Source: Labilibacter marinus (lineage in GTDB: Bacteria > Bacteroidota > Bacteroidia > Bacteroidales > Marinilabiliaceae). Taken from it: DNA of 64,000 nt. Shown one piece after another: positions 4,430-56,422 of the stretch (positions are counted from its first letter, which is position 1; every line of letters starts with the position of its first letter). The DNA lies in the NCBI RefSeq assembly GCF_001659685.2, contig NZ_LXYE02000002.1:1-64000 (forward strand), read 5' to 3'. The notes below the pieces were generated by a model, which saw only the letters and a list, made by a program, of their open reading frames with translations, ran no database searches and had not been told where the DNA came from. A program made the position numbers and the translations under genes.

Positions 4430-4434
4430 GAAAT

Positions 4435-4575: not shown

Positions 4576-4580
4576 AAAAA

Positions 4581-34514: not shown

Positions 34515-37500
34515 TTATAAAACCACTTTTTTAGTTATCTCCATACCATCGCTTTGTACTTTTACAATAGCAACTCTATTTCCTTTTAAAGGTATTTGGT
34601 AATAGGATGTATTAAAGATTCCTTGATGAATACTTTGCCCGCTTAAGTCATAAATAGATACTTTATATTCCGAGGATTTTAATGATGAATTTTCGTTAAT
34701 ATTTATTTTCACCATCTCGTCTTTAGCGTAAATATTAACCTCCGATTGATTTAACTTTTCAGATGGCAATGTAGTGGAAAGTTGATTTTTGCACACCAAT
34801 AATTCAAATCTATCATTCGTATTATCCATATGTTCAAAATGGTATGCCGATTGGTTTCTAAGGTTAATTAAATGATTCTTAGCATTATCTTTTAATAAAA
34901 TATCCCAAGAGGTATTAACACTATTAATATCCGAAATATTCAACTGCAAGGTGCTATTTGGCTCATTACTTAACTGATACCCCACTGGTATAACAATGGT
35001 ATCGTTAGGCTGGGGCAATACATTTATAGAAAGAAGTTTACTTGCTTTTTGTGCAAAAATATTTGCTGATGCATCATCACCCATTCGTTTCTCCGAATCG
35101 TACTTCGTCACATCAAAACTACCTTCTTCCCTAAATGCCAACACTAACTCATCCGAAATATCACCTTGCTCCAATAGTAGTCTGATTACATCATTGGCCT
35201 CAGCTGATGCACTTTTTAACTGTGATGCGACAGATGAATGTAGCTGTGCTCGCGAATTGATGACAATGTCATCATTACCAGTATAGGTTCTTACCCAAAA
35301 ACTTTGGCCAGGTACAATATATTTAGTCCCTCCGTTTTGTCCTAAACCAGATGCTATATTATAGGTGGCAAAACCACGAGAATTGTTACCTAGGTTAGTT
35401 CTTACCCAAGTACTTTCTTTAAAACTACCCAAATCAATACCGTTGGTAATATCTAAATAGCTAGGGTACGGATTACCTACCAAGTACCATCCTGCTTTTA
35501 CAAAGCTCCTACTGTAACTATCTGAGGCGTTCAGTTTTCCGTCATACTCCAAAGTAGACGATGCATCTTTAATGTTTAAAGAGTAACCTTCTAGCGCTGT
35601 TGTATTGATATCAGACGATTCATAAAAGTCGTAATTCATGTTACCCTGTATAGAATTCCAGGCATCCTTGTAATTATACAATACATAGGCGTTTCCATTT
35701 TGTGTTAAAGATTGCTCAAAATCTTCCATAGTAACACCTGATAATGGCAAACCAATATACCAATACCTTAATTGTGGTAATTGCCAGCGATAAGTAACCA
35801 ATGGCTCAACCGAGCCTTTGCTTATTAATGAACTCAGGCCTGTATTAGAATTCTCTACGATTAAGCCATGATCAATACCCTTTAAATCGCCATTGATGGT
35901 AACCTGACTTCCTGCTTTTATGGTTAAATTCCCACTGACAATATTTAGATGGCGGATTTGTGCATTTCCATTTAATGAAGGATTATAAACAATACCTGTA
36001 TTGATGGTCACATCTGAGTTAGCACTTGGTACTTCATTTGAGCTCCAGTTGTCCGCTGTAAACCAGTTGTTGCTAGTTCCACCTAACCATGAGTAAGCCA
36101 ACAATACATCGCTAGCAAAGGTGTAATAACTACCTTCATTACTCCAATCAAAGGATGGTCTGGCAGTGCTTGTGGTGATGGTTCCTGTCTGATTACTACC
36201 TGTAGGTGTGTTACATGTAAGCGCCTGCCACTGGTCGCCAGAAGGACTAGACTTCCAAACACCCATGGTCACAATAGACATATCTACACCACTATGAGCT
36301 CCCCAATTAAAGGTCATGTGAGCTTTAGCCTGTGCATTAGGGCCTAAAACTCGCCAAAATTCCTGATGACTAATATATTTCAATGGATCCTCTAAGGCCT
36401 CCACATCCATGTTGCGACTGTGGTCTGATGGCGAATATTTATAATACTCAGCCACCCAAAGACCACTTGAATTTTGACTAGTATTGATATGGATGGGTGC
36501 AAACTTACCTGATTGCCCTAGCGGAAATCTAAAGTTTTGACTCGACTGCATAACTTTATATAAAGGTCCGTTTATATAACTTTGTACATCGCCTCCAACA
36601 ATGGCATTTACCGAATTATTCAATACCGTTAATTTTGCTGTAGAACTTGTGCTTACAATACCACTTTGTAAATCCAATATATTATTGATAGAACACGATG
36701 TTTCTAAATCTACACCGTAGCTATTATCAATACGTAAACAATTAAAAGAATTTGCATCTGTAAATGATGACGCACCATTTATATATTGCTTCACACCTCC
36801 CGAAAATTCAACCATTGGATTACTATTACCTACAGCACTTCCCCAATTAACAGATCCACTAACAAAGCTTAGGTTACCTTTAATAATCATATCTTGATTA
36901 TGCTCATTAATGCAATTTAACAAGGTATTATCTCCTTGAATTGTAAAGTTTCCTTTTAGTTTAAGACTTACATTGGGAAAACGACGTTCACCTGTTCCGC
37001 TTAATTTTAGATTATTAATATCCGATAGGTTATTTAAGATGTCATAATCATTTGTTCCAGAATACTCTAAAGTACCTCCCTCTTCAGATAAAAAAGTATC
37101 GTAAAAACCTGCAGGTATTATTTCCGATTCACTGATTAAGGTTCCAGTACCTTCAACAATACCCAGGCGATTCCCAAAAGTTGTTCCCGTACTTATCGTT
37201 CCGTTAATGGTAGTACGATAGGAGGATCGATACTTTTGAGCTATAGTAACCGTATGTTCTGGATTAATGATCACTTGAGCTCCAATTGGGCCGCCTACAG
37301 GCACCGCACCTCCAGCGGGCACTGTTTGCCAAGTGGATGCCGATGACCAGTCTCCCGACACAACAGACTCATAGGTAGGAACGCTATTAGGAATGGCTCC
37401 AAGACGCGTTTGTGAGTTGGGCTGAACTCCTGCAGTATAATCTCCAGAAATCTCACTGTCTGAAACACCATTATAGCTAAATCGCATTAAATCATTTGAC

Positions 37501-40500
37501 TCTTCAAAATCAGCCCAATCAAACTTATTCCAATCCGACTCATTAAAAATCAAACGCGCAGGAATGTAATCCGCAGCGCTATACGTTGAACCATTTTGAT
37601 TACTGATAAGAATATCATTAGATGTAAAATGCATTTCAACATGGCCTGTAAAGGAAGTTACTCCGGTACTGCGTAAGCTCCAATAGTAGTTCAGTGCATT
37701 TTCACGATCGACAATTTCAGTATCAGGGTTCTCAATATCTTCTTGAATGGATGGATGCATTTCATTAGCTGCTTTTACAATAAGCGCTGATTCCCCTCCC
37801 GAAATAGATGAAATATTTGCCACAACTGGAGTGTATTTACCTCCAGATCCTATAGGGTAAGTTGTACTACCTACATATCCATTATTAAAATACTTTTTAA
37901 TACCACTATCTGTAAAAGAAGCATTGGTTTGAATCATATTATTTGTCCCATAAGATTCAATGGGAGTAAAAATGGCGTCTTCAGACATTACAAGAAGATT
38001 TTCGCCTATATCCAGGACTCCAGCTTTTAAGCACAGTTCATTCTTAATCGTAATGGAATCTGTAGCTGTTGTTAGTTTAACTCCGAATGCCCCATTATCA
38101 ATGTACATTTTACCCAAAGTACCACCATTGCCATCAATCAGTTGTTGTTCGTTGCCTTTAAATAAGATTCCATCGCCACCAGACAAATGAATAATTTCTG
38201 AAGTATTTTGAAGGTTTCCTTGTAGTGTGACTGTATGACCACCGTCGGAAAGAGTACCGGATGTAACGTTTAATTGATTTTCTACAGTACAATTTTGTTC
38301 CAGCACTAAACTGTTGGCACCTTGTTTGCTTAAGGTTGAAAAAGTTGTTTCAGCTGTTCCTCCTATTATTTGTTGCGATTCACTTGTGAATATGGTTTCA
38401 TTGCCATTGGATTCATACACTCCATAATTAGTAAAATCCTTTTTTATGGTAACAGTTTGCCCGTTGGCATTAAATGTTGAAGCAATAGGAACAGTATTTT
38501 GTAAATCACCTACATCAAGATTTCCAACAGTTAAAGGTACAGTTACCAATCTAGCTTCATTATTTGCTCCTAATATGCTTAGATTCTCTATTTCCTTGTT
38601 TATATATAGGTCAAAGAACCGAGAATTAAGGTCTGATGATTGACCAATTTGAATACTCGTGCCACTTTCAATACTGACCGTTTCAGGATCAAAATAGAAA
38701 GCTGGGAAAGTAGCATTTTCCTGTGGCCTGACAATATGAAGGTCGCCGGCATTTTGAGTAAAACTACTTCCGTCATTTAAAATTTCGAAAACACCTCGAT
38801 TATTAACTGGCGCGGCAAATTCTCCAACCACCAATCCGCTCTCGTTATTTTGTGTGTATTTTAATATACCTTCTTCCGTATTCTCTGGTCGACGAATTTG
38901 CGAACCAACGCACAACATACCTCCATCCAGTATCAATTCGGCATTACCCGAAGCAGAATATTCGATATAATTATTGCCATTACCTGGCGCATCTCCAAAG
39001 AACGACGCCATCATACCATTAATGAGGACTGTGCCGGCTGGAATAACTCCAGGAATAGATCCCGTTTGAAGGCGACCATCTAAATAGATTCCACTATCAT
39101 CACCATAAAAGTGAAGCATCCCAGCATTCACTACTAAGGCCGCATCCGCAGGTATTCTAAAATCAGCTCCTCCAGTATTTAATGGTAAATTGATTTCTGC
39201 AGAATTAAAAATAGCTGAACCACTTTTTAGGATAAACGCTTTTTCTTCGGCTAACCCATTGGTTGGTCCTGTTAAGTTAAATGCATTTTCAAACGTAAAT
39301 GAATGATTTTGTGAACCTCCTTTATCCACAATTATGCGCGAGAATACAACATTCGATGATTGAGATGAATATTTGTGATCACCTTCTCCCAGCAAATTAA
39401 GTACAGCATGGGCATGGTTAGTATCATTTCCTAGTTGAACACTTGCATTAGCTGATTCAAGCTGGAAATCTCCGTATACATTCAGATTATGCTGCAGCAG
39501 CTGATTACCCGCATTATCTATGGCAATTTGAGAAGCCATGTTATTATTTGAAGTATTGCGTAGTATTATATCCTGAAGAACATTAATTTCAGAAACATTA
39601 GCGTTGGAAGAAGAAAGCAAAAACTGCCCGTTATTATAACTTGAATGACCTATTTTTAAATCCTTACCAATGGTTAATTTCCCTTCTCCTGCGCGGACTA
39701 TAGAGTGATGCACAATGTTCATATTTCTGTTAATGGTTACATCCTCATTTGGCATGTTAATTAGGCGACTATTGTTTCCACCGCTAAACCATAAAGAGGG
39801 ATATTCGGTAAATGAATCTGATAGGGTTATTTCAGCATTTGAAGAAGCTCCACTCCAATCATAAATGATAAGCGCATCATCATATTGATGAAAATTGGAA
39901 AAATCACCATTAGGCAAATCACCATTATAATGCTCATCTATCTCAAATGCAATAACAGCGGCATAATTATCTAATTCGGTTCCTGTATGTGTATCGGCTA
40001 CCTCAACATAGTTAAGTGTAGATGAGTAAGCATGGTAGTTATTATTATTGGAAAAAATAATGCGCGGACATCCACCTGAATAACCATGCTGATCATCAAA
40101 CACAACTCGTCCCACATTTAAAGCCTGATTAACCGTTACCAAACCACTATAAAAAGCACCTTGACGTTGAAGAATAGCCACATCACCTTCCTTGGGGTAA
40201 TCAGAGGCAGCTATGCTAGCGTCTCGATCCATTACCCATGATGTTGGATTTGTCCAAAGATTAGTTCCTGAACCTGTATTTAGATAGTATACCTCAGGGC
40301 TGCCTTCAAAGCGAGCTTCTCTACCAGCTGTATAGGAGGCATTTTTTATCTCAAACCCGTTATCACTAGAACCGTTTAAAACAATGCTTTTAGAATTCTC
40401 AGCAACACTGCTATAATCAGGGCTAGGAGAATCCTCATACCATCTGGTAAACGCACCAGTATTAAGTACTTCACCAGCTACATAGTCATAGGCATTATAG

Positions 40501-43421
40501 ATACTACCTGGAATATCGTTGTTGTTATACCTAAAGGTTAATTGAACAATAGGTTTAGTAGCTTCAAAACCTTGCGGTTGTACGTCCCAATAATAACTTA
40601 AACAGCTACCGCCATTTAAGTTAGTTGTTTGTAACTCCTGATCAACAGGAACAATGGTAATGTAACCATCGGAAATATTAGAATTTTTTACCTCAACCAT
40701 GGCCGGGGTATATTTTCCATTGCATCCTATCGGAAAAATGTAATTACTCTGGTTAGCATCTACTTTTAATTGTAAACCGCCATCCGAAGCATTACCAGCA
40801 GTATAAATCATCTTAGTAGAACTGGCATCTCCAATATTATTAAAAGGTACATAAGGATTCCTGGTATTATATTTCACAAGGTAATCAAGCTTTAGCTTAT
40901 GAGTTCCCAGGTTAATATTACCCCTTTTGTAGTCTAATCGTTTAATGTATATATCAGAGGTAAATGTCATTGCTGTAGAAGTACTTCCTTCAAGTTTTAC
41001 ATACCCAAATATGGCATCATCTGAAGATTGAATATCCTGGTTGCTGATATTGGTTGCCAAGTAAGCGCCATGCCTTGTTACCCCATGCTCATAAGTACAA
41101 AGTGTACCCTTGTTAACAATGGGTCCGAAAGCTCTGATTCCCCAGTTTCCTTGATCTAGGGTACCATTTTCGACACGTAATTCCCCCATTGATCTCACCA
41201 ATCGGGCATACGTATTATCTGTGACAACACGGTTATTATCATCACATTCAACTTTTATGGAAGCGCCATTTTGTTTATCAACCGTTAGGTTCCAAAGAAC
41301 TTGCTCCTGTGCGTGAGATGGATTATCATACCAGGTATAATAAAGAACCCCATCTTCTGTACCATTGAATGTTGTTGTATTCTTGCTCCAGCTCGTCAGC
41401 CATTGGGTATTGTTTCTATTGTTATAACCACTCATAGCATGATGCTCATAGGTTGCTGCGCGCTCAATGGTGAAATTTCTTCCGATAGTTACATCATTAC
41501 CATTGTGCAAAAACCGAACAACATCTTTTGAGAAGTTAGTTACCTGATCTGGTGTTTCCAAGACTAAATCATGCAGTACCACAAGATTGCTTTCTAACTT
41601 AAAAGCATGACTCATACTTGTAATAACTTCCCCCTGTCTTTTTACGGTTAGATTATAAACGGGTACCGTTGAATGATAGTCAAAATCATCCGTATCATCC
41701 ATTTCAACAACAACATTACCTCCTGTAACTTGGTAATTACTTTCTGCTGATAATACTTTGAATTCAGGAACAGAACTGTTGTTAGCATCCTTAAAATTGA
41801 TGCTTCCACCACTCATTTGAAAAACAGAACTTTCACTATCGAGTCCAAACAAAGGGAAATTAGTACCAATGGCAGCTCCATTTTTATTTCCCCAAATAAT
41901 TATCTCACCACCCGATTGATTGTAAGAAACAACTCCAGACGCACCTGACTGACTTCGAATCTGCCCAGCTTCAATAGTTCCTCCACTAATTTTCATCTGA
42001 CCATTAGCATCACCCCAAAAAATTAGTCCTGCACTGTTTCGAGTACTCAAAAATCCATCGGAAACCATTAATTCACCATATATAGACAACGCTTGATGGC
42101 CGCCTCCACCATTAACTCCAAGAGCTGTTTGTCCGGGCACATCATTAACACTTTGAGCAGTTGTATATACTCGGGTATCTGCCGACGCTATCCACAATCG
42201 TCCATTTTGACCAATCTGAAAATCACCGTTACCACCATTTGAATTACCTTCACTTAAGGATGGGATATGAATTTTTCCATTCAACTTTAGGGTGCCGTTC
42301 TGAATCCATAAGGCTTTTCTAACTTCTGGATTTGATTCGCTATAGGGAGCACTTGTGACTCTTCCTAAACTGTTGGGGCCCAATAGAGCAAAATACGATT
42401 CATCGGTTGCATCAATCTCTAATTGATAGGTTTTATCCACACCTTTATTAACAATTAAAGTATATAAGTTGCTTGTTCCTTCTAATAGCGCTTTACTATC
42501 CCTTAAGGTGTTAAATTCTAAAACAGCCGCTCCGTCTGTAGCTAATTCATCATAAACAGGAAAGGTTCTGTTGGTTAACAAAAGCTCTCCCTCATTATGT
42601 AGATTACCACCTATCGTTAAACGGTGATGCATGTTATGGTAATTTCCTACACTTGGTAATTGATTAGAACCAATGCTGTTGCTGCCAATTGTATTTCCTT
42701 GACCAACGGTTATTTTAGCACCTGAGGATATCTGTAAATCATTCTCAATAGTAATATTTAAAGTACTTGTTGATACATCATCATTAATTTGAAAAATACC
42801 TTTGGATATGACCAAGGAGTTAGATAAACTGCAGTTTCCGAGTAAAGTTAATACTTGGTTGGCATCGTTTAAGTTTACCTCCATATTGTAATACGTAAAG
42901 CTCTGAGAAGATACAGTATTTAACGCATAAGATTCCCCTGTATAAACAACCGTTCCTTGTCCGCTGGATGAATTAAAGTGTGTAGCATCTCCATCTGGAA
43001 AATTGTTATTCGCCAAAATAATTCGTCCACCTCCACGTATTTGTCCAAAAGAATGTGTGATATCCGAAGCCGAAATATCTAAACGTCCATCAATGGTTAT
43101 TCTGCTACATTGTAGTACTCCATTTGCTTGGTGAATAGATATGGTTTTACCTGTATGAATAACAATAATATCCTCTACAGAAGGAACTTCATTAATTGGG
43201 TTATTGGGTAGGTTTCCGGAAGGGTCAAGTGTCCAGGTTTCCCAATCGTTCCAATCACCCGAACGCAGTGCGTACCAAGTTTGAGTTTCTGATAACACGC
43301 TAATTTTATTATTCTCAAAGGATTCTCTTTTTGAGGGATTCACATCGTTTGCCACTACACTTACAAAACACATTAGCATTAATGCAAGTAGTTTAACACT
43401 TTTAAATACCGTACAACACAT
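34515..43421 (-). CDS. Giant T9SS-exported modular surface protein, 2968 residues
   Basis: After a signal peptide (about 1-24, ending SVVAN) the protein is almost entirely beta-structured, rich in Asn, Gly, Ser and Thr, with long parallel-beta-helix-like stretches (repeated phrases such as LNLNGKIHI, NLTIKAGSQVTINGDL). Four modules start with a Trp-rich signature like SGDWNDWETWTLDPSG (near residues 49, 1044, 2015 and 2441). Three F/Y-P-I/L-G-x-x-G-K-Y/F-T/A-P motifs lie near 897, 1857 and 2300. The last about 80 residues form a type A T9SS sorting domain (YKVSIYDLSGQSIHQG ... KKVVL). It is probably secreted and anchored on the cell surface as an adhesin or matrix protein. No catalytic motif is seen. 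Confidence 0.9.
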   Translation of the reverse strand: MCCTVFKSVKLLALMLMCFVSVVANDVNPSKRESFENNKISVLSETQTWYALRSGDWNDWETWTLDPSGNLPNNPINEVPSVEDIIVIHTGKTISIHQANGVLQCSRITIDGRLDISASDITHSFGQIRGGGRIILANNNFPDGDATHFNSSSGQGTVVYTGESYALNTVSSQSFTYYNMEVNLNDANQVLTLLGNCSLSNSLVISKGIFQINDDVSTSTLNITIENDLQISSGAKITVGQGNTIGSNSIGSNQLPSVGNYHNMHHRLTIGGNLHNEGELLLTNRTFPVYDELATDGAAVLEFNTLRDSKALLEGTSNLYTLIVNKGVDKTYQLEIDATDESYFALLGPNSLGRVTSAPYSESNPEVRKALWIQNGTLKLNGKIHIPSLSEGNSNGGNGDFQIGQNGRLWIASADTRVYTTAQSVNDVPGQTALGVNGGGGHQALSIYGELMVSDGFLSTRNSAGLIFWGDANGQMKISGGTIEAGQIRSQSGASGVVSYNQSGGEIIIWGNKNGAAIGTNFPLFGLDSESSVFQMSGGSINFKDANNSSVPEFKVLSAESNYQVTGGNVVVEMDDTDDFDYHSTVPVYNLTVKRQGEVITSMSHAFKLESNLVVLHDLVLETPDQVTNFSKDVVRFLHNGNDVTIGRNFTIERAATYEHHAMSGYNNRNNTQWLTSWSKNTTTFNGTEDGVLYYTWYDNPSHAQEQVLWNLTVDKQNGASIKVECDDNNRVVTDNTYARLVRSMGELRVENGTLDQGNWGIRAFGPIVNKGTLCTYEHGVTRHGAYLATNISNQDIQSSDDAIFGYVKLEGSTSTAMTFTSDIYIKRLDYKRGNINLGTHKLKLDYLVKYNTRNPYVPFNNIGDASSTKMIYTAGNASDGGLQLKVDANQSNYIFPIGCNGKYTPAMVEVKNSNISDGYITIVPVDQELQTTNLNGGSCLSYYWDVQPQGFEATKPIVQLTFRYNNNDIPGSIYNAYDYVAGEVLNTGAFTRWYEDSPSPDYSSVAENSKSIVLNGSSDNGFEIKNASYTAGREARFEGSPEVYYLNTGSGTNLWTNPTSWVMDRDASIAASDYPKEGDVAILQRQGAFYSGLVTVNQALNVGRVVFDDQHGYSGGCPRIIFSNNNNYHAYSSTLNYVEVADTHTGTELDNYAAVIAFEIDEHYNGDLPNGDFSNFHQYDDALIIYDWSGASSNAEITLSDSFTEYPSLWFSGGNNSRLINMPNEDVTINRNMNIVHHSIVRAGEGKLTIGKDLKIGHSSYNNGQFLLSSSNANVSEINVLQDIILRNTSNNNMASQIAIDNAGNQLLQHNLNVYGDFQLESANASVQLGNDTNHAHAVLNLLGEGDHKYSSQSSNVVFSRIIVDKGGSQNHSFTFENAFNLTGPTNGLAEEKAFILKSGSAIFNSAEINLPLNTGGADFRIPADAALVVNAGMLHFYGDDSGIYLDGRLQTGSIPGVIPAGTVLINGMMASFFGDAPGNGNNYIEYSASGNAELILDGGMLCVGSQIRRPENTEEGILKYTQNNESGLVVGEFAAPVNNRGVFEILNDGSSFTQNAGDLHIVRPQENATFPAFYFDPETVSIESGTSIQIGQSSDLNSRFFDLYINKEIENLSILGANNEARLVTVPLTVGNLDVGDLQNTVPIASTFNANGQTVTIKKDFTNYGVYESNGNETIFTSESQQIIGGTAETTFSTLSKQGANSLVLEQNCTVENQLNVTSGTLSDGGHTVTLQGNLQNTSEIIHLSGGDGILFKGNEQQLIDGNGGTLGKMYIDNGAFGVKLTTATDSITIKNELCLKAGVLDIGENLLVMSEDAIFTPIESYGTNNMIQTNASFTDSGIKKYFNNGYVGSTTYPIGSGGKYTPVVANISSISGGESALIVKAANEMHPSIQEDIENPDTEIVDRENALNYYWSLRSTGVTSFTGHVEMHFTSNDILISNQNGSTYSAADYIPARLIFNESDWNKFDWADFEESNDLMRFSYNGVSDSEISGDYTAGVQPNSQTRLGAIPNSVPTYESVVSGDWSSASTWQTVPAGGAVPVGGPIGAQVIINPEHTVTIAQKYRSSYRTTINGTISTGTTFGNRLGIVEGTGTLISESEIIPAGFYDTFLSEEGGTLEYSGTNDYDILNNLSDINNLKLSGTGERRFPNVSLKLKGNFTIQGDNTLLNCINEHNQDMIIKGNLSFVSGSVNWGSAVGNSNPMVEFSGGVKQYINGASSFTDANSFNCLRIDNSYGVDLETSCSINNILDLQSGIVSTSSTAKLTVLNNSVNAIVGGDVQSYINGPLYKVMQSSQNFRFPLGQSGKFAPIHINTSQNSSGLWVAEYYKYSPSDHSRNMDVEALEDPLKYISHQEFWRVLGPNAQAKAHMTFNWGAHSGVDMSIVTMGVWKSSPSGDQWQALTCNTPTGSNQTGTITTSTARPSFDWSNEGSYYTFASDVLLAYSWLGGTSNNWFTADNWSSNEVPSANSDVTINTGIVYNPSLNGNAQIRHLNIVSGNLTIKAGSQVTINGDLKGIDHGLIVENSNTGLSSLISKGSVEPLVTYRWQLPQLRYWYIGLPLSGVTMEDFEQSLTQNGNAYVLYNYKDAWNSIQGNMNYDFYESSDINTTALEGYSLNIKDASSTLEYDGKLNASDSYSRSFVKAGWYLVGNPYPSYLDITNGIDLGSFKESTWVRTNLGNNSRGFATYNIASGLGQNGGTKYIVPGQSFWVRTYTGNDDIVINSRAQLHSSVASQLKSASAEANDVIRLLLEQGDISDELVLAFREEGSFDVTKYDSEKRMGDDASANIFAQKASKLLSINVLPQPNDTIVIPVGYQLSNEPNSTLQLNISDINSVNTSWDILLKDNAKNHLINLRNQSAYHFEHMDNTNDRFELLVCKNQLSTTLPSEKLNQSEVNIYAKDEMVKININENSSLKSSEYKVSIYDLSGQSIHQGIFNTSYYQIPLKGNRVAIVKVQSDGMEITKKVVL

Positions 43422-47802: not shown

Positions 47803-49317
47803 ATGGAAAATTTAATTAAAAGATTAATCTTAGCATCATTTGTTATACTCCTTGGAGCAGTTGCAACTATAGCTCAAAAGCAACCAAATATTTTAGTCAT
47901 CATGGGCGATGATATCGGAGCGCCAAACCTAAGTATTTACGGTCATGGCATCATGGGCTATCAAACTCCAAATATTGATAGAATCGGAAAAGATGGTTTA
48001 ATGTTTACGGATTATTATGCTGAGCAAAGCTGTACAGCTGGCCGTTCTGCATTTATAACAGGACAACATGTTATTAGAACAGGCCTGTCCAAAGTTGGCC
48101 TTCCTGGATCTAATATTGGCATTCAGGATGAAACGGCCACATTGGCTGAAATGCTGAAACCTTTGGGTTATGCGACAGGTCAGTTTGGGAAGAATCATTT
48201 TGGAGACCTAGATAAACATTTGCCTACTAATCACGGATTTGATGAATTCTTTGGTAATTTATATCATTTGAATGCAGAGGAAGAGCCTGAACATCAAGAT
48301 TGGCCAACTGGAGAAGAGGCTAAAAGAGTAGCAGTACCAAGGGGTGTTTTGCAAGCATCTGCCGATGGCCCGATTAAAGATACTGGACCTTTAACCAGCA
48401 AAAGAATGGAAACAGTTGATGAGGAATTTATGGCGGCTGCTTTTCAATTTATGGAAGAAAAAACAGCAGAGAATAAGCCGTGGTTTACATGGATGAATAC
48501 AACTGGTATGCACTTCTGGACGCATATAAATGACGAATGGAAAGGAAAGTCAGGCTTGGGTGATTATGCTGATGGTATGTTACGCTTAGACTGGATTGTG
48601 GGTGAATTTGAAAAAAAGCTAAAGGAATTGGGAGTAGATGACAACACCATAGTAATTTTTACCACAGATAATGGTGTACATCAGGCTACCTGGCCCGATG
48701 CTGGTGTAACTTGGTTTCACGGTGAAAAAACAACGAATTGGGAAGGTGGTTTCCGAGTGCCTTGTTTAGCAAAATTCCCTGAAAGATATGATATTGAACC
48801 TGGAACTATTGTAAATGACGTTACATCACACCTAGATTGGGTACCCACACTACTAGCCGCAGCAGGAGACAAAGATACGCCAGAAAAGCTTTTAGCAGGT
48901 ACTTTCGAATCTAATAATAAAGTATTTAAAAATCATTTAGATGGGTTTGATATGCTACCATTATGGAGCGGTAAAACGGATGAAAATCCTCGTAAGTATT
49001 TCATTTATGCTACCGATGCAGGCGAAATTTCTGCCATTAGATTTGCCGATAGATGGAAGGCTATGTATATGGAACAAAAGGCAATTGGTCAGGATGTTTG
49101 GGTATATAAATTAGAATCTCTAAAAGCACCTCTGTTATTTGACCTCAGAAACGATCCTTTTGAGAAAGCCAGAGAAACAAACAGCTATCATGATTGGTAT
49201 GCTAGGCACCCATTCGTATTTGGCTGGGCTGCAAGTTATGTGATAGAGTTTAAATCAACCTTTGAAGAATATCCTGCTGTTCAAAAGCCAGCAACATGGA
49301 ATATAACAGAGTTATAG
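47803..49317 (+). CDS. Exported arylsulfatase (S1 family, AtsA-like)
   Basis: Sulfatase of 504 residues with a cleavable signal peptide (about 1-24, ending ATIAQ). Metal aspartates are in IMGDDIGAPN (36-37). The formylglycine motif is CTAGR with Cys77, a C-x-A-x-R form. GKNHFGD, HEPG-like TNWEGGFRVP and TTDNGVH segments complete the active-site architecture. The long GHGIMGYQTPNIDRIGKDG stretch and the C-terminal FVFGWAASYVIEFKSTFEEYP segment are typical of a broad arylsulfatase subgroup common in marine bacteria. It is divergent from an AraC regulator and convergent with an MhpD/FAH-type gene, apart from the main polysaccharide locus. Confidence 0.9.
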   Translation: MENLIKRLILASFVILLGAVATIAQKQPNILVIMGDDIGAPNLSIYGHGIMGYQTPNIDRIGKDGLMFTDYYAEQSCTAGRSAFITGQHVIRTGLSKVGLPGSNIGIQDETATLAEMLKPLGYATGQFGKNHFGDLDKHLPTNHGFDEFFGNLYHLNAEEEPEHQDWPTGEEAKRVAVPRGVLQASADGPIKDTGPLTSKRMETVDEEFMAAAFQFMEEKTAENKPWFTWMNTTGMHFWTHINDEWKGKSGLGDYADGMLRLDWIVGEFEKKLKELGVDDNTIVIFTTDNGVHQATWPDAGVTWFHGEKTTNWEGGFRVPCLAKFPERYDIEPGTIVNDVTSHLDWVPTLLAAAGDKDTPEKLLAGTFESNNKVFKNHLDGFDMLPLWSGKTDENPRKYFIYATDAGEISAIRFADRWKAMYMEQKAIGQDVWVYKLESLKAPLLFDLRNDPFEKARETNSYHDWYARHPFVFGWAASYVIEFKSTFEEYPAVQKPATWNITEL

Positions 49318-49471: not shown

Positions 49472-50170
49472 CTATTTCACTTCCAGTTTTAACTTACCCA
49501 GTTTTCCGTAGTCTGCAGTATAAGTTCCTTTTTCAATAGCATGTATTTGTCCTAGAGCTCCAGTAATTACAATGTCACCTTTTTTAGGCGAATAACCATG
49601 CTCAATGGCAAAGTTAATAGCCACGGATAGAGCTTCCCATTGGTTATCCATTGCATCCGTTCCCTTACCTGTATTAATAGCTGTGTTGTTATGGAAAAGT
49701 TCAGCGACTATGCTGTTTGGATCAACGCTTCCTACGGGAACAGCATCACCAAGTACTTGATGCGAACTAAAAGTGTTGCTTCCAATTAATTCAGGAACGG
49801 TAATGTTTGCAGGATCTTCTGAAGTTACATCAGGTACTTCAAATACAGGAAGCAATTCAGCAATAAAAGATTGTACATTTTCTACAGAGGTAAGTTCACT
49901 AACGTCCTGCGCTAATCGGTAGCCTATTTCAGTTTCAATCTTAGCTAATTTAAAGTCGCTAAGCTCAATGGTACTGTTGTTTTCAAGGTTGCCATCTTGA
50001 TAAAGTACACCAGCAAGCAATGTGCTTAAGCCCATGTTTTTCTGTCCACCTCTTCCTGAAACTGCCGCTTTGTATCCAGCAATTCCCTTTGTTTTAATTA
50101 CTTCGGTAACCAATTTTTTCTGATTTGCATAAGCTTGTTCTAGAACGTCGCTTGGAATTAGTTCAGCCAT
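49472..50170 (-). CDS. 2-keto-4-pentenoate hydratase/FAH superfamily enzyme
   Basis: Soluble 232-residue protein of the MhpD/fumarylacetoacetase-like fold. It shows the GLSTLLAGVLYQDG segment, the metal-binding Glu-x-Glu in AKIETEIGYRL, a central DNQWEALSVAINFAIEHG and the closing KKGDIVITGALGQIHAI. Family members hydrate or decarboxylate 2-keto-enoic acids, or split beta-diketo acids with Mg2+. It is divergent from the GntR-led sugar-acid operon across 275 bases containing an operator-like palindrome, so it may act on an intermediate of that operon, for example a 2-keto-3-deoxy acid. Its own substrate is not determinable. Confidence 0.75.
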   Translation of the reverse strand: MAELIPSDVLEQAYANQKKLVTEVIKTKGIAGYKAAVSGRGGQKNMGLSTLLAGVLYQDGNLENNSTIELSDFKLAKIETEIGYRLAQDVSELTSVENVQSFIAELLPVFEVPDVTSEDPANITVPELIGSNTFSSHQVLGDAVPVGSVDPNSIVAELFHNNTAINTGKGTDAMDNQWEALSVAINFAIEHGYSPKKGDIVITGALGQIHAIEKGTYTADYGKLGKLKLEVK

Positions 50171-50422: not shown

Positions 50423-50436
50423 TTTTGTATACAAAA
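50423..50436. promoter_or_regulatory. GntR-type operator palindrome TTTTGTATACAAAA
   Basis: Perfect 14-bp palindrome of the TTGTATACAA form bound by FadR-subfamily GntR regulators. It lies between the -7 element and the GTG start at 50446, as expected for autorepression. Confidence 0.7.
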
Positions 50437-50445: not shown

Positions 50446-51102
50446 GTGAGTAGAGTACAGATTGAACAGCCAGATTTGAGTAAGCCCATTTACGATAAAG
50501 TAAAGGCCATGATATTAAGTCAGGAGTTAAAACCTGGGCAAAAAATCATTCAAGAAAAACTGTCGGCACAATTAGGTGTAAGTCGCACGCCATTAGCAAA
50601 AGCACTTCAAATGTTAGAGTTTGAATTGTTGGTAGAAAGCAAGCCCAGAAGGGGAATGTATGTAAAGGATATTGACTTACAGGAAATGTTGGAGGTTTTT
50701 GAATGTAGAGAGGCGCTAGAAGGAATGGCTGCTCGAAAATTAGCCGAGCTAACAAATAAGGATACGATTAAAAGGATGGAGGCTTTAATCACTCCATTTA
50801 TGAATAAGGATAAAAAAATAGTGACAACGAAATATGCTAGAGCCGATGAGAAATTTCATCAAATATTAATTGATGATACAGGCAATAAGGTATTACGTCG
50901 CCTATTTGTTTTTGGAAGTATCCATGATAAGATTGCCCAAATGGGATTGGTTCGACCACCAGAGGAGACCTTAGAAGAGCATATTAAAATTGTAGAAGCC
51001 ATTAAAGAAGGGGACGGAGATAAGGCGGCAGAAGCAGCTTCAATGCACGTTCGTAGGTCAAGAGAACTGATTGAAAAAGAAATTCAGAAGATAGATAACT
51101 AA
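50446..51102 (+). CDS. GntR-family (FadR subfamily) transcriptional regulator
   Basis: About 218 residues from the GTG at 50446. The in-frame TTG at 50425 lies upstream of the expected transcription start and inside the operator, so it is unlikely to be the start. The N-terminal winged helix spans YDKVKAMILSQELKPGQKI through QLGVSRTPLAKALQMLEFELLV. The all-helical FCD ligand domain follows, with the metal/ligand pattern ECREALEGMAARKLAEL, DEKFHQILI and EEHIKIVEAIKEGD. Such regulators respond to sugar acids or other carboxylates. It is the first gene of a six-gene operon, 14 bases before the next gene, and probably controls its own promoter. Confidence 0.9.
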   Translation: MSRVQIEQPDLSKPIYDKVKAMILSQELKPGQKIIQEKLSAQLGVSRTPLAKALQMLEFELLVESKPRRGMYVKDIDLQEMLEVFECREALEGMAARKLAELTNKDTIKRMEALITPFMNKDKKIVTTKYARADEKFHQILIDDTGNKVLRRLFVFGSIHDKIAQMGLVRPPEETLEEHIKIVEAIKEGDGDKAAEAASMHVRRSRELIEKEIQKIDN

Positions 51103-51116
51103 TAATTAATTAAGAA

Positions 51117-52163
51117 ATGAAGAACTACAAAATTGCTGTTATTCCTGGAGATGGTATTGGTCATGAAATTGTGCCTGCAGCGGTTAAAATTTTAGATGCA
51201 GTAGCTTCTAAAAATGATTTTGAGTTAACGAAAGAAGACTTCACCTTTGGCGCTGGTCATTATTTAAAAAATGGTGAGTTTATGCCAGAGAATGGACTGG
51301 AAATCTTAAAAGGATTTGATGCCATATTTTTTGGCGCAGTAGGGCTACCTGCTGTGGATGATTCTTTACCAGCCAAGGATTATACGTTTAAAGTAAGATC
51401 TGCTTTCAGACAATATGCCAACTATCGACCAGTAAGAACTTATGCAGGTATCGATGGACCACTTAAATCTGATAAAGAAATTGATATGGTGGTGGTGCGT
51501 GAGAATACAGAGGGTGAGTTTGTTCAAATAGGAGGTCAGTTCTTCCCCGATTTTGAAAATGGTTTTGGTGTAGATACTTCTGTGTTTACACGTAAAGGAA
51601 CCGAGCGTATAGCACACTATGCATTTAAATTAGCTCGTACCCGAAGAAATAAAGTAACCTTTATTACTAAATCAAATACTTTAATTAATAGTTTAACCTA
51701 TTGGGATAGAGTGATCAATGAAGTAGCTGTAAATTACCCTGATGTAAAGTGTGAGAGAATGTACATTGATGCAGCAGCGGCTAACTTTGTGCTTAAGCCA
51801 GAAACATTTGATGTGGTATTAACCACGAATTCGTATGGTGATATCTTAAGTGATTTAGGTGGTGCTATTATGGGAAGTTTAGGTTTAGGCGGCTCAGGAA
51901 ATGTTAACCCTGAAAAAGATTATCCATCTATGTTTGAGCCTATTCATGGTTCTGCTCCAGATATTGCAGGTGAGAACAAAGCCAATCCTTATGGTCAAAT
52001 TTGGTCGGCAGCTATCATGTTAGAGCATTTAGGCGAAAGCGAAGCAGCGCAACAAATTATGGTGGCCATGGATAAAGCTACGGCTGATGGTATTTTGTCT
52101 GTTGATTTAGGTGGTAAGTATGCTACCGATAAAATTGCAGATGAGGTAATTAAAAGATTATAA
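51117..52163 (+). CDS. Tartrate/D-malate/isopropylmalate-type beta-decarboxylating dehydrogenase
   Basis: A 348-residue member of the isocitrate/isopropylmalate dehydrogenase family. It shows PGDGIGHEIVP (9-19), FDAIFFGAVGLP, the VRENTEGEF signature, the catalytic-lysine segment ITKSNTL, the Mg2+-binding TNSYGDILSDLGG and the NAD-binding HGSAPDIAGENKANP. The RPVRTYAGIDGPL stretch and the missing LeuB-type signatures place it closer to tartrate/D-malate dehydrogenases (TtuC/DmlA) than to LeuB, as far as can be judged by eye. It would oxidise a 2-hydroxy acid next to a carboxylate, with or without decarboxylation. It is located in the GntR operon, so a sugar-acid-derived substrate is likely. 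Confidence 0.85.
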   Translation: MKNYKIAVIPGDGIGHEIVPAAVKILDAVASKNDFELTKEDFTFGAGHYLKNGEFMPENGLEILKGFDAIFFGAVGLPAVDDSLPAKDYTFKVRSAFRQYANYRPVRTYAGIDGPLKSDKEIDMVVVRENTEGEFVQIGGQFFPDFENGFGVDTSVFTRKGTERIAHYAFKLARTRRNKVTFITKSNTLINSLTYWDRVINEVAVNYPDVKCERMYIDAAAANFVLKPETFDVVLTTNSYGDILSDLGGAIMGSLGLGGSGNVNPEKDYPSMFEPIHGSAPDIAGENKANPYGQIWSAAIMLEHLGESEAAQQIMVAMDKATADGILSVDLGGKYATDKIADEVIKRL

Positions 52164-52198
52164 AAGGAATTACTGAAAATACGTGTATTTAAATTGTT

Positions 52199-52837
52199 AT
52201 GCCTAAATATATTGATCTTACATTAAATCTTGAATCTGGTATGCGCGGTGTATCAGTGGATGTGGCCCGTCGTATCGAAAAGGATGGCTGGAACGCAACC
52301 ACCTTTCATCTATATTCTCATGCAGGAACCCATATGGATGCTCCCTTGCATTTTGATAGGGATAATGGAATAAATACCATTGATGTCATTCCTGTGGAGC
52401 GCTTTTTTGTGGATAGTTACTTGATTGATGTAAGTACGATAGGAGATAAAGGTTTGATATTGCCATCGCATCTAGGGGATGTTATTGATAAGATAAAAGC
52501 TGGAGAAGGTCTTATTTTTAAAACAGGCTGGAGCCAATATGTTGGTGAGGACAAATTTAGAGATGACTTGCCTCGCATTAGCAAAGAGTTGGTGAAGTGG
52601 TGCATCGATAAAAAGGTTGGCTTGATTGGTGTTGAACCACCATCCATAGCCGATGTAAATAACCCACAGGAGCTGACCGAAATTCATGCCTTGGTGCTTG
52701 ATGCAGGAATAATGATTGTGGAAGGCTTATGTAATTTAGAAGCCATCACCCAAGAAAAAGTACACTTAGTTTCATTGCCTCTGCGCGTTAAAGGTGCCGA
52801 TGGTGCGCCTGCCAGAGTTGTTGCTATTGAAGAATAA
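52199..52837 (+). CDS. Cyclase-family metal-dependent hydrolase
   Basis: A 212-residue member of the cyclase (kynurenine formamidase/isatin hydrolase-like) family. The signature HAGTHMDAPLHF at 41-52 supplies the metal ligands His41, His45, Asp47 and His51. A further conserved-type ending lies around LVLDAGIMIVEGLCNLEAI. Family members hydrolyse amides, lactams or lactones in the cytoplasm. Here a lactone-opening role in sugar acid catabolism is plausible, but it is an inference. Its TAA stop shares one base with the ATG of the transaldolase-like gene (TAATG), so the two are translationally coupled. Confidence 0.85.
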   Translation: MPKYIDLTLNLESGMRGVSVDVARRIEKDGWNATTFHLYSHAGTHMDAPLHFDRDNGINTIDVIPVERFFVDSYLIDVSTIGDKGLILPSHLGDVIDKIKAGEGLIFKTGWSQYVGEDKFRDDLPRISKELVKWCIDKKVGLIGVEPPSIADVNNPQELTEIHALVLDAGIMIVEGLCNLEAITQEKVHLVSLPLRVKGADGAPARVVAIEE

Positions 52838-53895
52838 TGAAAAAAAATACTACTATGATTAGCGATTATTTTTACAGAGTTGGAGCCTTAACGCCAACAA
52901 AATTTTGGATTAATAATGTCACCAAAGAAGAAGCTAAAATGGCCATTGAAGCAGGCGCTTTAGGTTGTACGCAAAACCCTTCATATACCTGGAAAATGTT
53001 AACGCATCCAGAGTATGGAGATTACGCCAAAAAGGTATTAGCTGAAACGCTAAAGGAGTCTGATGATGATAATGAGGTAGCTTGTATTTTTCAGCGTAAG
53101 CTAATTGCTGAGATTGCTGAAATATTTATGCCTGTTTATGAAAAAACAAACGGAAAGCATGGGTATGTGAGTATTCAAGGTGACCCGATTCATGAACATG
53201 ATGCACAGGTTATTATTGATGAGGCGCGCAGAAATAGAGAGATAAGCCCCAATATGATGATAAAAATTCCTGCTACTAAAGCGGGAATTGAAGCCATGGA
53301 TGTATTGATTGCCGAAAATACGCCTTTAAATGCAACAGAGGTAATGGGTATGAGTCAGGCTCTTCAGTTGTGTGATATGTATAAAAGTATCACAGAAAGA
53401 ACTAAAACAAGGCCTGTGATGCTATTGTCTTTGATAACAGGAATTTATGACGAATGGTTGCAAAAAGATGTACAAGAAAAAGGAATTGAGGTTAACCCTG
53501 ATGCACTTTATCAGGCAGGTATGGTTATTGCCAAAAAAGTATATAAAACCATGCACGACCGCGGAACTGAACTTGGTTTTATTGGCGGTGGCATGCGTGG
53601 TTTACATCATTTTACAGAGATGGTTGGCGGTGATGTGAATATTACCATGAACTGGAAAGGTCATGCTGAAGAATTACTAAAATTAAATAAACCAGTAGTT
53701 TCAAGATTATTCAACCCAACGCAAGATGTTGTGCTTGAAGAGCTGTTAGCTAAACTACCAGAATTTAATAAAGCATACTTCGAAAATGGTTTAACAGTGG
53801 ATGAATACGAAGAGTATGGTCCTGTTAAATATTTTTGGGAATCTTTTGTTAGCGCATGGAAAAACGTAGTAAAAACTATCGGAGAAATGCGATAG
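52837..53895 (+). CDS. Divergent transaldolase-family protein with substituted acid residues
   Basis: A 352-residue transaldolase-fold protein. The Schiff-base lysine is kept (Lys143 in MMIKIPATKAG) and so is the TQNP motif (45-48). At the place where transaldolases have the catalytic Asp (usual pattern x-W-L-D-D-L-S) it reads FWINNVT, with Asn26/Asn27. At the place of the catalytic Glu (usual VSxEVDPR) it reads VSIQGDPI, with Gln114. The normal sugar-phosphate transfer may therefore be changed, for example to an aldolase on a non-phosphorylated acid. It starts on the stop codon of the cyclase gene and belongs to the GntR operon. A further helical extension ends the protein. Confidence 0.75.
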   Translation: MKKNTTMISDYFYRVGALTPTKFWINNVTKEEAKMAIEAGALGCTQNPSYTWKMLTHPEYGDYAKKVLAETLKESDDDNEVACIFQRKLIAEIAEIFMPVYEKTNGKHGYVSIQGDPIHEHDAQVIIDEARRNREISPNMMIKIPATKAGIEAMDVLIAENTPLNATEVMGMSQALQLCDMYKSITERTKTRPVMLLSLITGIYDEWLQKDVQEKGIEVNPDALYQAGMVIAKKVYKTMHDRGTELGFIGGGMRGLHHFTEMVGGDVNITMNWKGHAEELLKLNKPVVSRLFNPTQDVVLEELLAKLPEFNKAYFENGLTVDEYEEYGPVKYFWESFVSAWKNVVKTIGEMR

Positions 53896-54050
53896 TACCA
53901 AAATATAGATAACCATTTCTTGCTGGTATTTTAAGGTAGGAATAGTTATCCGTTGTTTTCCAAAACACAATTTACCGAAGCGATAGTTTATATGATGGTT
54001 ATTCATTGTATATTCTATCGTTTTAAAAATCTACATTTTAATCTACACTT

Positions 54051-54086
54051 AAACCAACGGTATGGTATTAATGATGCTGTTGGTTT
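54051..54086 (+). terminator. Weak hairpin between transaldolase-like gene and MFS gene
   Basis: AAACCAAC / GTTGGTTT with a 20-base loop in a 211-base gap, without a strong T-run. It may attenuate transcription into the transporter gene, or simply be chance. Confidence 0.35.
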
Positions 54087-54106
54087 TAATCCCTTAAAAT
54101 AAATCT

Positions 54107-55387
54107 ATGTTTCCCAGACGAATAATTCTGGTTATTGGAACCTTTCTGATAACCGTTCTCCTTTATGTGGATAGAGCCTGTATTGGAGCAGCAAAAGAAA
54201 ATATAAGTAGCGACTTTAACTTAACCAATCTACAATGGACGTGGGTATTGGCTATTTTCACCTTAGGTTATGCGCTTTTTCAACGTCCAGCAGGACAATT
54301 ATCAGATAAAAAAGGTCCTCGCTTTGTGATGGCATGCATCATTGGGGTTTGGTCGTTTTTAACCGCTTTAACTGGGGCAGCCTGGAATGCCATGTCTTTA
54401 TTGGTGATTCGTTTCTTATTTGGAGCAGGTGAAGCAGGAGCATTTCCTACCTTATCAAAGGTGGTGTTTAAATGGTTTCCAATTAAAGAACGTGGTATTG
54501 TACAAGGTATTAATTTCTCTGGTTCGCGACTTGGAGCTGCATTTGCTTACCCTATCGTATTTATATTAATTAGTGCCGTGGGCTGGAAATGGAGCTTTGG
54601 TGTATTTGGTATTGTTGGCGTATTGTTCGCTGTAGTATGGTGGATATTTTTTAGAGACACACCCGAAGAGATTGAAGATATTAGTGCAGAAGAAAAAAAG
54701 TATATTATTGATAATCGTCAAGAACAATCATCGGCTAAACCAAAGCCATTAGATTTTATAAAAACCATGAAATCGTCTAATTTGTGGATGGCGATGATTC
54801 AGTATATTGGGAGTAACTTTACTTTCTATTTTACATTAACCTGGATGTTCCCTTATTTGAAGGAAGCTTTAAAAGCATCGGGAACAAACACTAGTTTTTA
54901 TGCCATGGCACCTTTAATTGCTGGTGCATTAGGTAATTGGGTTTCAGGTTTTATGGTGGATAAAATGTATGCTTCAGGTCGATGGCGATGGTCTCGTAGA
55001 TTACCAGCAATGATTGGTTTCACTTTGGCTGCAATAGGTATGTTTTTAATGCCTCAGGCAGATTCTACCATGATGAAGTTATTGTTATTAAGTATTGCAA
55101 TTTTTGGGGCGGATATGACCTTAAGTCCTTCGTGGGCATTTTGTATCGATATTGGTAAAGAGCATGCCGGTTCTGTTTCTGGAACGATGAATATGGCAGG
55201 GAACTTAGGCGCTTTTGCATCTATCCTTGTATTTGGTTATTTAGCAGAATCCTTGATTTCGTCAGGATTAAATGCCAAAGAAGCGATGGCAGCTAATGAT
55301 ATGTTTTTCTATATCTGTGCAGGTTTAAGCGTACTGTCCATCATCATGTGGAGTTTTATGCGACCAAGACGAAGTATTGTTGATTAA
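54107..55387 (+). CDS. MFS transporter, anion:cation symporter (ACS) family, sugar-acid type
   Basis: A 426-residue transporter with 12 predicted helices in two halves, separated by a cytoplasmic loop around residues 195-225. The first-helix DRACIGAAKENISSDFNLTNLQW segment, the GYALFQRPAGQLSDKKGPR loop and the RFLFGAGEAGAFPTLSKVVFKWFP stretch match the GudP/ExuT-like hexuronate and aldarate transporters. It is therefore likely to import a sugar acid by cation symport. It lies 211 bases after the transaldolase-like gene and 12 bases before the Gfo/Idh/MocA gene. Confidence 0.88.
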   Translation: MFPRRIILVIGTFLITVLLYVDRACIGAAKENISSDFNLTNLQWTWVLAIFTLGYALFQRPAGQLSDKKGPRFVMACIIGVWSFLTALTGAAWNAMSLLVIRFLFGAGEAGAFPTLSKVVFKWFPIKERGIVQGINFSGSRLGAAFAYPIVFILISAVGWKWSFGVFGIVGVLFAVVWWIFFRDTPEEIEDISAEEKKYIIDNRQEQSSAKPKPLDFIKTMKSSNLWMAMIQYIGSNFTFYFTLTWMFPYLKEALKASGTNTSFYAMAPLIAGALGNWVSGFMVDKMYASGRWRWSRRLPAMIGFTLAAIGMFLMPQADSTMMKLLLLSIAIFGADMTLSPSWAFCIDIGKEHAGSVSGTMNMAGNLGAFASILVFGYLAESLISSGLNAKEAMAANDMFFYICAGLSVLSIIMWSFMRPRRSIVD

Positions 55388-55399
55388 AAAAGAGTTAGT

Positions 55400-56422
55400 A
55401 TGAAGAAATATAAAGGAGTTGCTATAGGAGCAGGTTATTTTAGTGGTTTTCAGTACGAAGCTTGGCAACGGATGCCAGAAGTTGATTTGGTTGCTATGAG
55501 CAACAGAAACGAAGATCGTGCGAAGCCAATTATGGAAAAATATGAGGTAGCTCGTCATTATACCGATTGGAAAAAAATGATAGATGAGGAGAAGCCTGAT
55601 TTTGTAGACATCATTACGCCTCCAGAAACACACTTGGAAATGGTGACTTATGCTGCCAATAAAGGGGTGGATATCATTTGTCAGAAACCATTGGCGCCTA
55701 CTTTTGAAGAAGCCGTTGAGGTTGTTGAAGTAGCTAAGAAGGCAGGTGTTCGTTTTATGGTGCACGAAAATTTTAGGTTTCAGCCTTGGCACCGCGAAAT
55801 CCGTCAGCTCATCGATCAGGATGAGATAGGTCAAGTGCATAGTCTGTTTTTCCGTTCCAGAATGGGTGATGGATGGGGAGAAGATGCTTATTTAGCGCGT
55901 CAGCCTTACTTTAGAGATTATCCAAAGTTGTTGATTTACGAAACAGGTATTCATTTTATAGATACTTTCCGATATCATGCAGGTGAGGTAAAAGAGGTGT
56001 TTGCTAAATTGCGACGCTTAAATTCTGTGATTAAAGGTGAGGATAGAGGTATGGTTCAGTTGTTTTTTGAAAAAGGAACCTGGGCCACCTGGGATGCAAA
56101 CCGTTTTAATGAACCTAATTTTGAGAATTCGAGATATACTTTTGGTCACTATTTAGTAGAGGGAGAGAAGGGAGCTATTCGTCTTTATCCCGATGGTAAA
56201 ATAACCATTCAAAAGTTGGGTGAAAAGGAAGTGGAGAGAGAATATAAACATGTAAACAATGGTTTTGCAGGTGATTGTTGTTACATCACGCAACGTCATT
56301 TTGTAGATTGCTTGATAGATGGTTCCGAATTTGAAACCAATGGCGATGATTATTTAAGAAGCTTAAAAGTTCAAGAGGCCGTATACGAATCGGCGGATAC
56401 AGGAACCTTAGTTCAGTTATAA
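55400..56422 (+). CDS. Gfo/Idh/MocA-family oxidoreductase
   Basis: NAD(P)-dependent sugar oxidoreductase of 340 residues. The N-terminal Rossmann domain begins with IGAGYFSGF, a degenerate Gly-x-Gly motif. The family's EKP motif appears as CQKPLAPTFEEA (about 94-105) with the catalytic lysine. The C-terminal alpha/beta domain includes HENFRFQPWHREIR and the YETGIHFIDTFRYHAG segment with a probable catalytic His. These enzymes oxidise or reduce sugar hydroxyl groups. As last gene of the GntR operon it probably acts on the imported sugar acid or its lactone. The hairpin at 56430 ends the operon. Confidence 0.87.
   Translation: MKKYKGVAIGAGYFSGFQYEAWQRMPEVDLVAMSNRNEDRAKPIMEKYEVARHYTDWKKMIDEEKPDFVDIITPPETHLEMVTYAANKGVDIICQKPLAPTFEEAVEVVEVAKKAGVRFMVHENFRFQPWHREIRQLIDQDEIGQVHSLFFRSRMGDGWGEDAYLARQPYFRDYPKLLIYETGIHFIDTFRYHAGEVKEVFAKLRRLNSVIKGEDRGMVQLFFEKGTWATWDANRFNEPNFENSRYTFGHYLVEGEKGAIRLYPDGKITIQKLGEKEVEREYKHVNNGFAGDCCYITQRHFVDCLIDGSEFETNGDDYLRSLKVQEAVYESADTGTLVQL

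Follow-up and report, generated by a model that had tools for sequence, protein, structure and literature searches.

Which sugar does the six-gene operon at positions 50446 to 56422 of our window serve, and by what chemistry? The window is a 64,000-nucleotide stretch of the Labilibacter marinus genome (assembly GCF_001659685.2, contig NZ_LXYE02000002.1, positions 1 to 64,000), and a first-pass annotation of its sequence had assigned the operon to a sugar-acid pathway it could not name, under control of a GntR-type regulator. The operon appears to be an undescribed way of using a rare sugar without phosphorylation. With a probability of roughly 40%, we read it as the cytoplasmic half of a GntR regulon for a rare sugar that secreted hydrolases of the apiosidase superfamily release, most likely D-apiose or D-apionate. 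The strongest new evidence is a predicted operator together with a recurring gene neighbourhood, both of which would tie the operon to hydrolases of this superfamily. The features concerned are as follows.

50423-50436, no strand assigned: predicted GntR operator, a perfect 14-bp palindrome, TTTTGTATACAAAA (from sequence)
50446-51102, + strand: GntR regulator of the FCD (FadR) type (Pfam FCD 77.7 bits, GntR 63.9 bits)
51117-52163, + strand: tartrate/malate-type dehydrogenase (TDH) of the Iso_dh family, catalytic Tyr replaced by Phe (Iso_dh 304 bits)
52199-52837, + strand: cyclase-family metal hydrolase (CYC), proposed lactonase (PF04199, 85.4 bits)
52837-53895, + strand: transaldolase-like protein (TAL), proposed Schiff-base lyase or decarboxylase (PF00923, TAL_FSA, 94.7 bits)
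54107-55387, + strand: MFS transporter of the anion:cation symporter (ACS) type (MFS_1 193 bits)
55400-56422, + strand: Gfo/Idh/MocA oxidoreductase (GFO), proposed C1 sugar dehydrogenase (Pfam GFO_IDH_MocA)

Open reading frame (ORF) coordinates and Pfam matches agree with the first-pass annotation on the six genes, their order and their families, and reproduce its spacings of 14, 35, -1, 211 and 12 bases. The transaldolase homologue, which it called divergent, is divergent in sequence and not in orientation, as all six genes lie on the + strand. The GntR gene starts at GTG 50446; its longest ORF begins upstream at TTG 50425. Among the matches listed (for the transporter, the best 25 of 29), none of the six proteins scores above the cut-off of an NCBIfam model; the transporter comes nearest to TIGR00893, the D-galactonate transporter subfamily (233 bits, cut-off 395). 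Within the 211-base gap between the TAL and transporter genes (53896-54106) lies an inverted repeat of 13 bases with 85% complementarity (54051-54063 / 54074-54086), which is perhaps a second control point or an attenuator.

Within the window, the sole exact copy of TTTTGTATACAAAA is the one before the operon, and allowing up to three mismatches gives 15 matches against 17.8 expected, which is chance level. The whole genome (6,026,579 bases) contains 14 sites with at most one mismatch, two of them exact. The second exact copy lies 38 bases before the gene for a secreted-looking DUF5060 hydrolase (C40; L049:8714-11746), and sites with one mismatch stand 120, 40 and 52 bases before the DUF5060 genes C12, C1 and C22, respectively; four of the six DUF5060 matches in the genome are thereby preceded by a site, at distances of 38-120 bases. 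From 14 sites in 6.03 Mb, about 0.004 would be expected by chance over 6 x 250 bases. AT-rich promoters raise this expectation, yet it is still small, and a control search with the reversed pattern, of like composition, finds 12 sites in the genome, none of them near a DUF5060 match. Six of the 14 sites lie inside ORFs of at least 170 amino acids and were treated as chance; the sites at L057 and L060, located in ORFs of 60 and 72 amino acids judged to be non-genes, were counted as upstream sites. The operon and the secreted apiosidase-like enzymes are probably switched together by the operon's own repressor, such that GntR would bind TTTTGTATACAAAA before the operon and its close copies before the four hydrolase genes. 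Another site with one mismatch is found between divergent GH2 and sulfatase genes, adjoining a GH16 gene (C31; L072:6177-11467), and C31 is a possible further member of the regulon. Palindromes of the same kind precede GntR genes in other genomes (TATTGTATACAATA in L011, TTTTGAATTCAAAA in L015), the one in L015 lying between GntR and a divergent gene that is followed by a DUF5060 hydrolase. A 10-base core, TTGTATACAA, occurs in three copies in L024 and once, directly before TAL, in L037; at up to one mismatch, the core palindrome is absent from L013, L020, L021, L022 and L031.

Does the gene set itself hold together elsewhere? The first-pass annotation had proposed a comparison across Bacteroidota, where there is little to find: TAL matches five of 247 genomes in the window's order, its own included (E<=1e-40), and one of 395 in a sample of the phylum, again its own (E<=1e-30), and one genome of the same genus and two of the same family have no TAL match at E<=1e-40. 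Neighbourhoods were compared more widely, through a species-genome collection (described as holding 84,980 genomes) scanned with a three-sequence TAL alignment. This yielded 30 TAL loci, 41-75% identical, where L007 (G042) was counted with L011 and L008 (G108) with L039, each pair taken once. TDH, CYC and TAL are adjacent on one strand in ten of the 30 (L011, L012, L013, L015, L017, L018, L020, L023, L032 and L040), and these ten set loci come from four phyla: Bacteroidetes, Planctomycetota (Phycisphaerae, Sedimentisphaerales), KSB1 and Calditrichaeota. The transporter gene follows in nine and the GFO gene in seven, three loci being cut short (L013 and L020 end before a possible GFO gene, L032 inside TAL). 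CYC stands ahead of TDH in L015, and L022 has the transporter, GFO and TAL with no match to TDH or CYC. On this evidence, recurrence of the set is more than chance. GntR is adjacent to it in two of the ten loci (L011, 41% identity; L015, 47%) and accompanies it in three of 11 cases once the window is included; a LacI/AraC-type regulator takes its place in L012, L017, L018, L023 and L040, assigned by Pfam for L017 only and by sequence likeness for the others.

The hydrolases recur along with the set. A long DUF5060 hydrolase is encoded near the operon in eight of the ten set loci (L012, L013, L015, L017, L018, L023, L032 and L040), as well as near TAL in L022, and in their best segments these proteins are 55-60% identical to C40 in seven loci and 44-46% identical in L013 and L022; no DUF5060 match was obtained in L011 (15.6 kb) or in the 3.8-kb L020. 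Five of the long hydrolases were compared with Pfam: all five match DUF5060 and Collagen_bind_2, and three match Apiosidase at E<=10 (best 3.5e-4). Two of the four site-linked proteins of the genome, C1 and C22, exceed the cut-off of Apiosidase PF13204 (62-63 bits vs 26.5), as do two further proteins, C30 and C32, that have no site at up to one mismatch. Apiosidase-family proteins above the cut-off also occur near TAL in L019 and L035, and L036 encodes a protein 89% identical to that of L019. Where a solved relative of the hydrolases was found, it is 4n0r, an unassigned glycoside hydrolase. The earlier interpretation, which looked to transporter family and regulator type for the substrate, is borne out with respect to the conserved set; what it overlooked are the operator and the linked secreted hydrolases, and these are more telling on the substrate than the transporter family.

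A second pointer to the sugar comes from GFO. Its nearest solved structure is 5uhw (phmmer 3.4e-38; runner-up 3.4e-17), which Foldseek also ranks first for the GFO model (predicted local distance difference test, pLDDT, 88.7), at 28% identity. The PDB title of 5uhw reads 'an oxidoreductase from Agrobacterium radiobacter in complex with NAD+ and magnesium', and this protein is presumably the D-apiose dehydrogenase ApsD, which oxidises D-apiose to apionolactone. GFO may be a D-apiose dehydrogenase, as judged from nearness to 5uhw in fold and sequence. The hydrolase link and the GFO likeness together lead to D-apiose as a tentative substrate, both pointers being distant homology. The next enzyme would be CYC, which among solved structures is closest to a metal-dependent hydrolase and to kynurenine formamidases. 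The first-pass suggestion that the cyclase might open a lactone gains weight from L035: there, TAL and a 37%-identical GFO are accompanied by an SMP-30-like protein (by eye), and no cyclase match was listed.

TDH shares its fold family and most aligned motifs with the tartrate dehydrogenase/decarboxylase 3flk. It differs in one catalytic residue: the EGEY motif of 3flk reads EGEF in TDH, and EGEF is conserved in ten of ten distinct loci. The sole other Iso_dh match of the genome (E<=1e-10) keeps the tyrosine, reading GGIY. After decarboxylation, it is this catalytic tyrosine that protonates the product, so its absence points to oxidation without the classical decarboxylation, which TDH probably does not perform. 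The same residue bears on two other explanations of the locus. Were the locus an ordinary operon for tartrate or malate with unrelated passenger genes, the closeness of TDH to tartrate dehydrogenase would be explained, but we consider this highly improbable, as TDH lacks the tyrosine, scores 459.3 bits against TIGR02089 (tartrate dehydrogenase; cut-off 470.4), and belongs to a group of genes that travel together between phyla. A branched sugar carboxylated at C3, aceric acid for example, would yield an exact malate backbone after C1 oxidation and lactone opening, to be oxidised and decarboxylated by TDH and then split by TAL into hydroxypyruvate and acetaldehyde. This would suit an anion transporter and the malate-binding arginines that TDH has apparently kept, but the tyrosine that acts after decarboxylation is Phe in all ten loci, and the papers listed for aceric acid mention no catabolic pathway of this kind in their titles or abstract openings. 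We hold it to be very unlikely, and aceric acid was dropped as lead substrate since a TDH with Phe in place of Tyr is not expected to decarboxylate.

How, then, would the carbon chain be broken? In a Foldseek search with the AlphaFold model of TAL (pLDDT 94.5, from a 27-sequence alignment), transaldolases of Neisseria and Corynebacterium come out on top, with a template-modelling score of ~0.76. K143 aligns by hhalign to K132 of TalB and is invariant in 29 aligned sequences, and the same comparison pairs T167 with T156, S198 with S176 and I200 with F178. Through the alignment to the Neisseria transaldolase, N47 corresponds to TalB N35, and N26, invariant in 27 aligned sequences, replaces D17. 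Q114 stands in place of the catalytic Glu96, and the phosphate ligands R181, S226 and R228 have become I203, G252 and R254, so that one of three is kept. On this mapping, TAL retains the lysine and the donor side and differs from TalB on the acid/base and phosphate sides. These changes fit an unphosphorylated substrate without fixing the reaction: given that the lysine is kept and the retro-aldol and phosphate residues are lost, cleavage, decarboxylation and salvage of dihydroxyacetone are all possible. The earlier proposal that TAL splits the chain gains from the conserved Schiff-base lysine and loses from the missing retro-aldol and phosphate-binding residues.

Salvage would mean that TAL is not the pathway lyase and instead joins dihydroxyacetone to glyceraldehyde 3-phosphate in the manner of fructose-6-phosphate aldolase (FSA). 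FSA has Gln59 and Tyr131 as hallmark residues. Gln114 of TAL fits Gln59, and it takes the place of Glu96, for which E96Q forms of TalB exist in the PDB; this exchange in TalB favours FSA activity. Transketolase pairs near TAL (see below) could release the dihydroxyacetone. We nevertheless judge salvage to be quite unlikely, since Ile203 and Gly252 stand in place of two of the three phosphate ligands and Ile200, at the TalB F178 position, sits where FSA has its tyrosine; the hhalign comparison with E. coli FsaA spans 54 columns only.

Taken step by step, the pathway we propose would begin with import of the sugar by the MFS protein and its oxidation at C1 by GFO to a lactone, which the cyclase would open to the acid. 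The TDH-like enzyme would then oxidise the 2-hydroxyl, and the TAL lysine would form a Schiff base with the resulting ketone and break a C-C bond, either by retro-aldol cleavage or by decarboxylating a beta-keto acid, for instance 3-oxo-isoapionate, which would leave erythrulose. The products would enter the pentose-phosphate pathway, for example through transketolase, and would do so unphosphorylated because the operon encodes no kinase. An oxidative pathway for a sugar derived from a glycan, without a kinase among the operon's genes, is probable. A more specific version is unlikely: here the Iso_dh-family enzyme would be a D-apionate oxidoisomerase (its role passing to a DXR-like enzyme at two Spirochaete loci) and TAL a Schiff-base decarboxylase of the beta-keto acid, with erythrulose passing to transketolase.

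The TAL loci beyond the ten sets share a common theme, which is sugar-acid metabolism. A transketolase-like pair lies within 4 kb of TAL in six of them (L019, L024, L030, L036, L037 and L039), L038 has a transketolase fragment at its contig end, and L031 an N-terminal-type match ~5 kb from TAL; these transketolase neighbours count in favour of apiose. An Asp/Glu-racemase-like protein is present in L019, L021, L036, L038 and L039 (by Pfam in L019 and L021). In L029 and L033, a DRL-family oxidoreductase, presumably DXR-like, is encoded beside TAL with no TDH match (Pfam on L033, to which L029 is 92% identical), along with a TRAP transporter recognised by eye. A DUF1537-like kinase and a class II aldolase, both recognised by eye, are present in L027, and TAL is split over two frames in L037. 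In L039 (10016-11410) and L038 (291-1877), TAL has an extra C-terminal, cupin-like stretch (by eye) and lies beside transketolase subunits and the racemase-like gene. A 28-30%-identical transaldolase homologue found in L005, L006, L009 and L010 belongs to inositol-like clusters, with an IolB-like neighbour recognised by eye; homologues of this type have Asp at the Asp17 position and might cleave 2-deoxy-5-keto-gluconate without phosphorylation. The L030 short-chain dehydrogenase, 50% identical to one from an E. coli apiose cluster, was given no weight, as these enzymes are broad.

Some of these neighbourhoods speak for a uronate, the main rival to apiose. A hexuronate, perhaps 4-O-methylated, would be imported and oxidised at C1 by GFO, the cyclase would give the aldarate, TDH the keto-aldarate, and TAL would release hydroxypyruvate and tartronate semialdehyde. 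In L035, a strong homologue of hydroxypyruvate/2-oxo-tetronate isomerase (304-305 bits, just under the cut-offs) ends nine bases before TAL, and sugar isomerases with weak likeness only to this enzyme adjoin TAL in L026 and L024. A GarL-like aldolase is found near TAL in L025 and L028, and L025 also has a PGDH-like 2-hydroxyacid dehydrogenase beside TAL. Among aldarates, tartrate is the C4 member, GH115_C domains are present in several DUF5060 hydrolases, and ACS transporters and FCD-type GntR regulators are typical of hexuronate systems. Against this stand the nearness of GFO to 5uhw (if it is indeed an apiose dehydrogenase), the association with the apiosidase family and the lack of any glucuronidase recognised beside the operon; two glucuronidase-like candidates in L022 have no Pfam match. 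A uronate is, in our view, doubtful as the substrate.

Several known systems resemble the operon in part. Aldarate and hexuronate operons have the same types of transporter and regulator; they differ in that no dehydratase, uronate isomerase or 2-keto-3-deoxygluconate (KDG) enzyme is found among the six genes by Pfam. An oxidative D-apiose pathway was reportedly set out by Carter et al. in 2018. It is alike in its Gfo/Idh-type first enzyme (ApsD), its lactonase step and the oxidation of the acid before a C-C bond is broken, and unlike in its later steps, which cyclase, TDH and TAL occupy in the operon. One paper names its enzymes as D-apiose dehydrogenase, apionolactonase, apionate oxidoisomerase, 3-oxo-isoapionate kinase and 3-oxo-isoapionate-4-phosphate decarboxylase (PMC11747546), and two others report a RuBisCO-like decarboxylase in the apiose pathway (PMC6302742) and a transketolase-like pair, aptA and aptB, in apiose clusters (PMC13001218). 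The six genes include, by Pfam, neither the kinase nor the RuBisCO-like decarboxylase, for which the rest of the genome was not searched. The sulfo-TAL/sulfo-TK routes for sulfoquinovose are reported to be alike in that a transaldolase-fold enzyme, in some loci with a transketolase pair, works on a non-phosphate anionic sugar. TAL differs in length (352 amino acids vs 218-226 in solved SF-TAL chains) and, relative to TalB, lacks equivalents of Asp17 and Arg181; Pfam finds no sulfofructose-forming isomerase or ketose isomerase and no sulfolactaldehyde-handling enzyme among the six genes. Sulfoquinovose was dropped as a substrate because the operon has no isomerase. The view of the first-pass annotation that no described pathway uses this gene set has held, in that none was matched among the listed hits and passages of the open-licence papers searched, which does not prove the set unpublished.

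What weighs against D-apiose? ACS transporters usually carry organic anions and D-apiose is neutral, and TDH has apparently kept the arginines that, we presume, hold the malate moiety in Iso_dh enzymes (3flk alignment), which favours a beta-carboxylated substrate. GFO is just 28% identical to 5uhw. Two of the six DUF5060 genes have no site (C28, with four mismatches at best, and C32, with none at up to one), and L011, the nearest relative (75% TAL identity), is without a DUF5060 match in its 15.6 kb. Of the five long DUF5060 hydrolases compared, three match Apiosidase, all of them short of its cut-off, C40 and C12 do not match it at E 0.1, and the Pfam family may include other specificities. 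The transketolase pairs are 30-46% identical to E. coli AptA/AptB, a level that is not diagnostic. Finally, the C1 hydrolase and the C31 near-match lie among sulfatases and GH2 or GH16 enzymes, so that a sulfated glycan fits better than rhamnogalacturonan II. Transporter type and sulfatases thus point elsewhere.

The surroundings of the operon in the window are varied. Divergent from it, a gene on the - strand (49472-50170) starts 253 bases from the operator; it weakly resembles 2-keto-4-pentenoate hydratase (56 bits against a cut-off of 350), matches no Pfam family at E 0.001 and has no listed counterpart in the other loci. Upstream lies a sulfatase gene (47803-49317, + strand; Pfam Sulfatase 176 bits), and two further ORFs (13467-14942 and 15130-16542) look sulfatase-like by eye. 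At 3-5624 (+ strand), genes for a dehydrogenase, a short-chain dehydrogenase, an aldehyde dehydrogenase, an enolase-superfamily protein and an aldose-epimerase-like protein stand in a row that resembles, by eye, a non-phosphorylating deoxysugar pathway, and a single ORF of 2968 amino acids (34515-43421, - strand) probably encodes a large surface or secreted protein, again by eye. A promoter scan of the window gave fewer sites than shuffled sequences and a terminator scan 8 against 4.6 (standard deviation 2.4); we relied on neither. Scanned for Rfam families and tRNAs, the window gave no match.

Should the proposed pathway be correct, a rare plant or algal sugar would gain a further oxidative, kinase-free route, present across several bacterial phyla, and two textbook folds, those of the isocitrate-dehydrogenase family and of transaldolase, would have taken on new reactions. 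It would also indicate an activity for a transaldolase-like family that occurs in many sugar-acid neighbourhoods. The predicted operator offers a handle for finding the rest of the regulon, and the four hydrolases linked to it could name the sugar.

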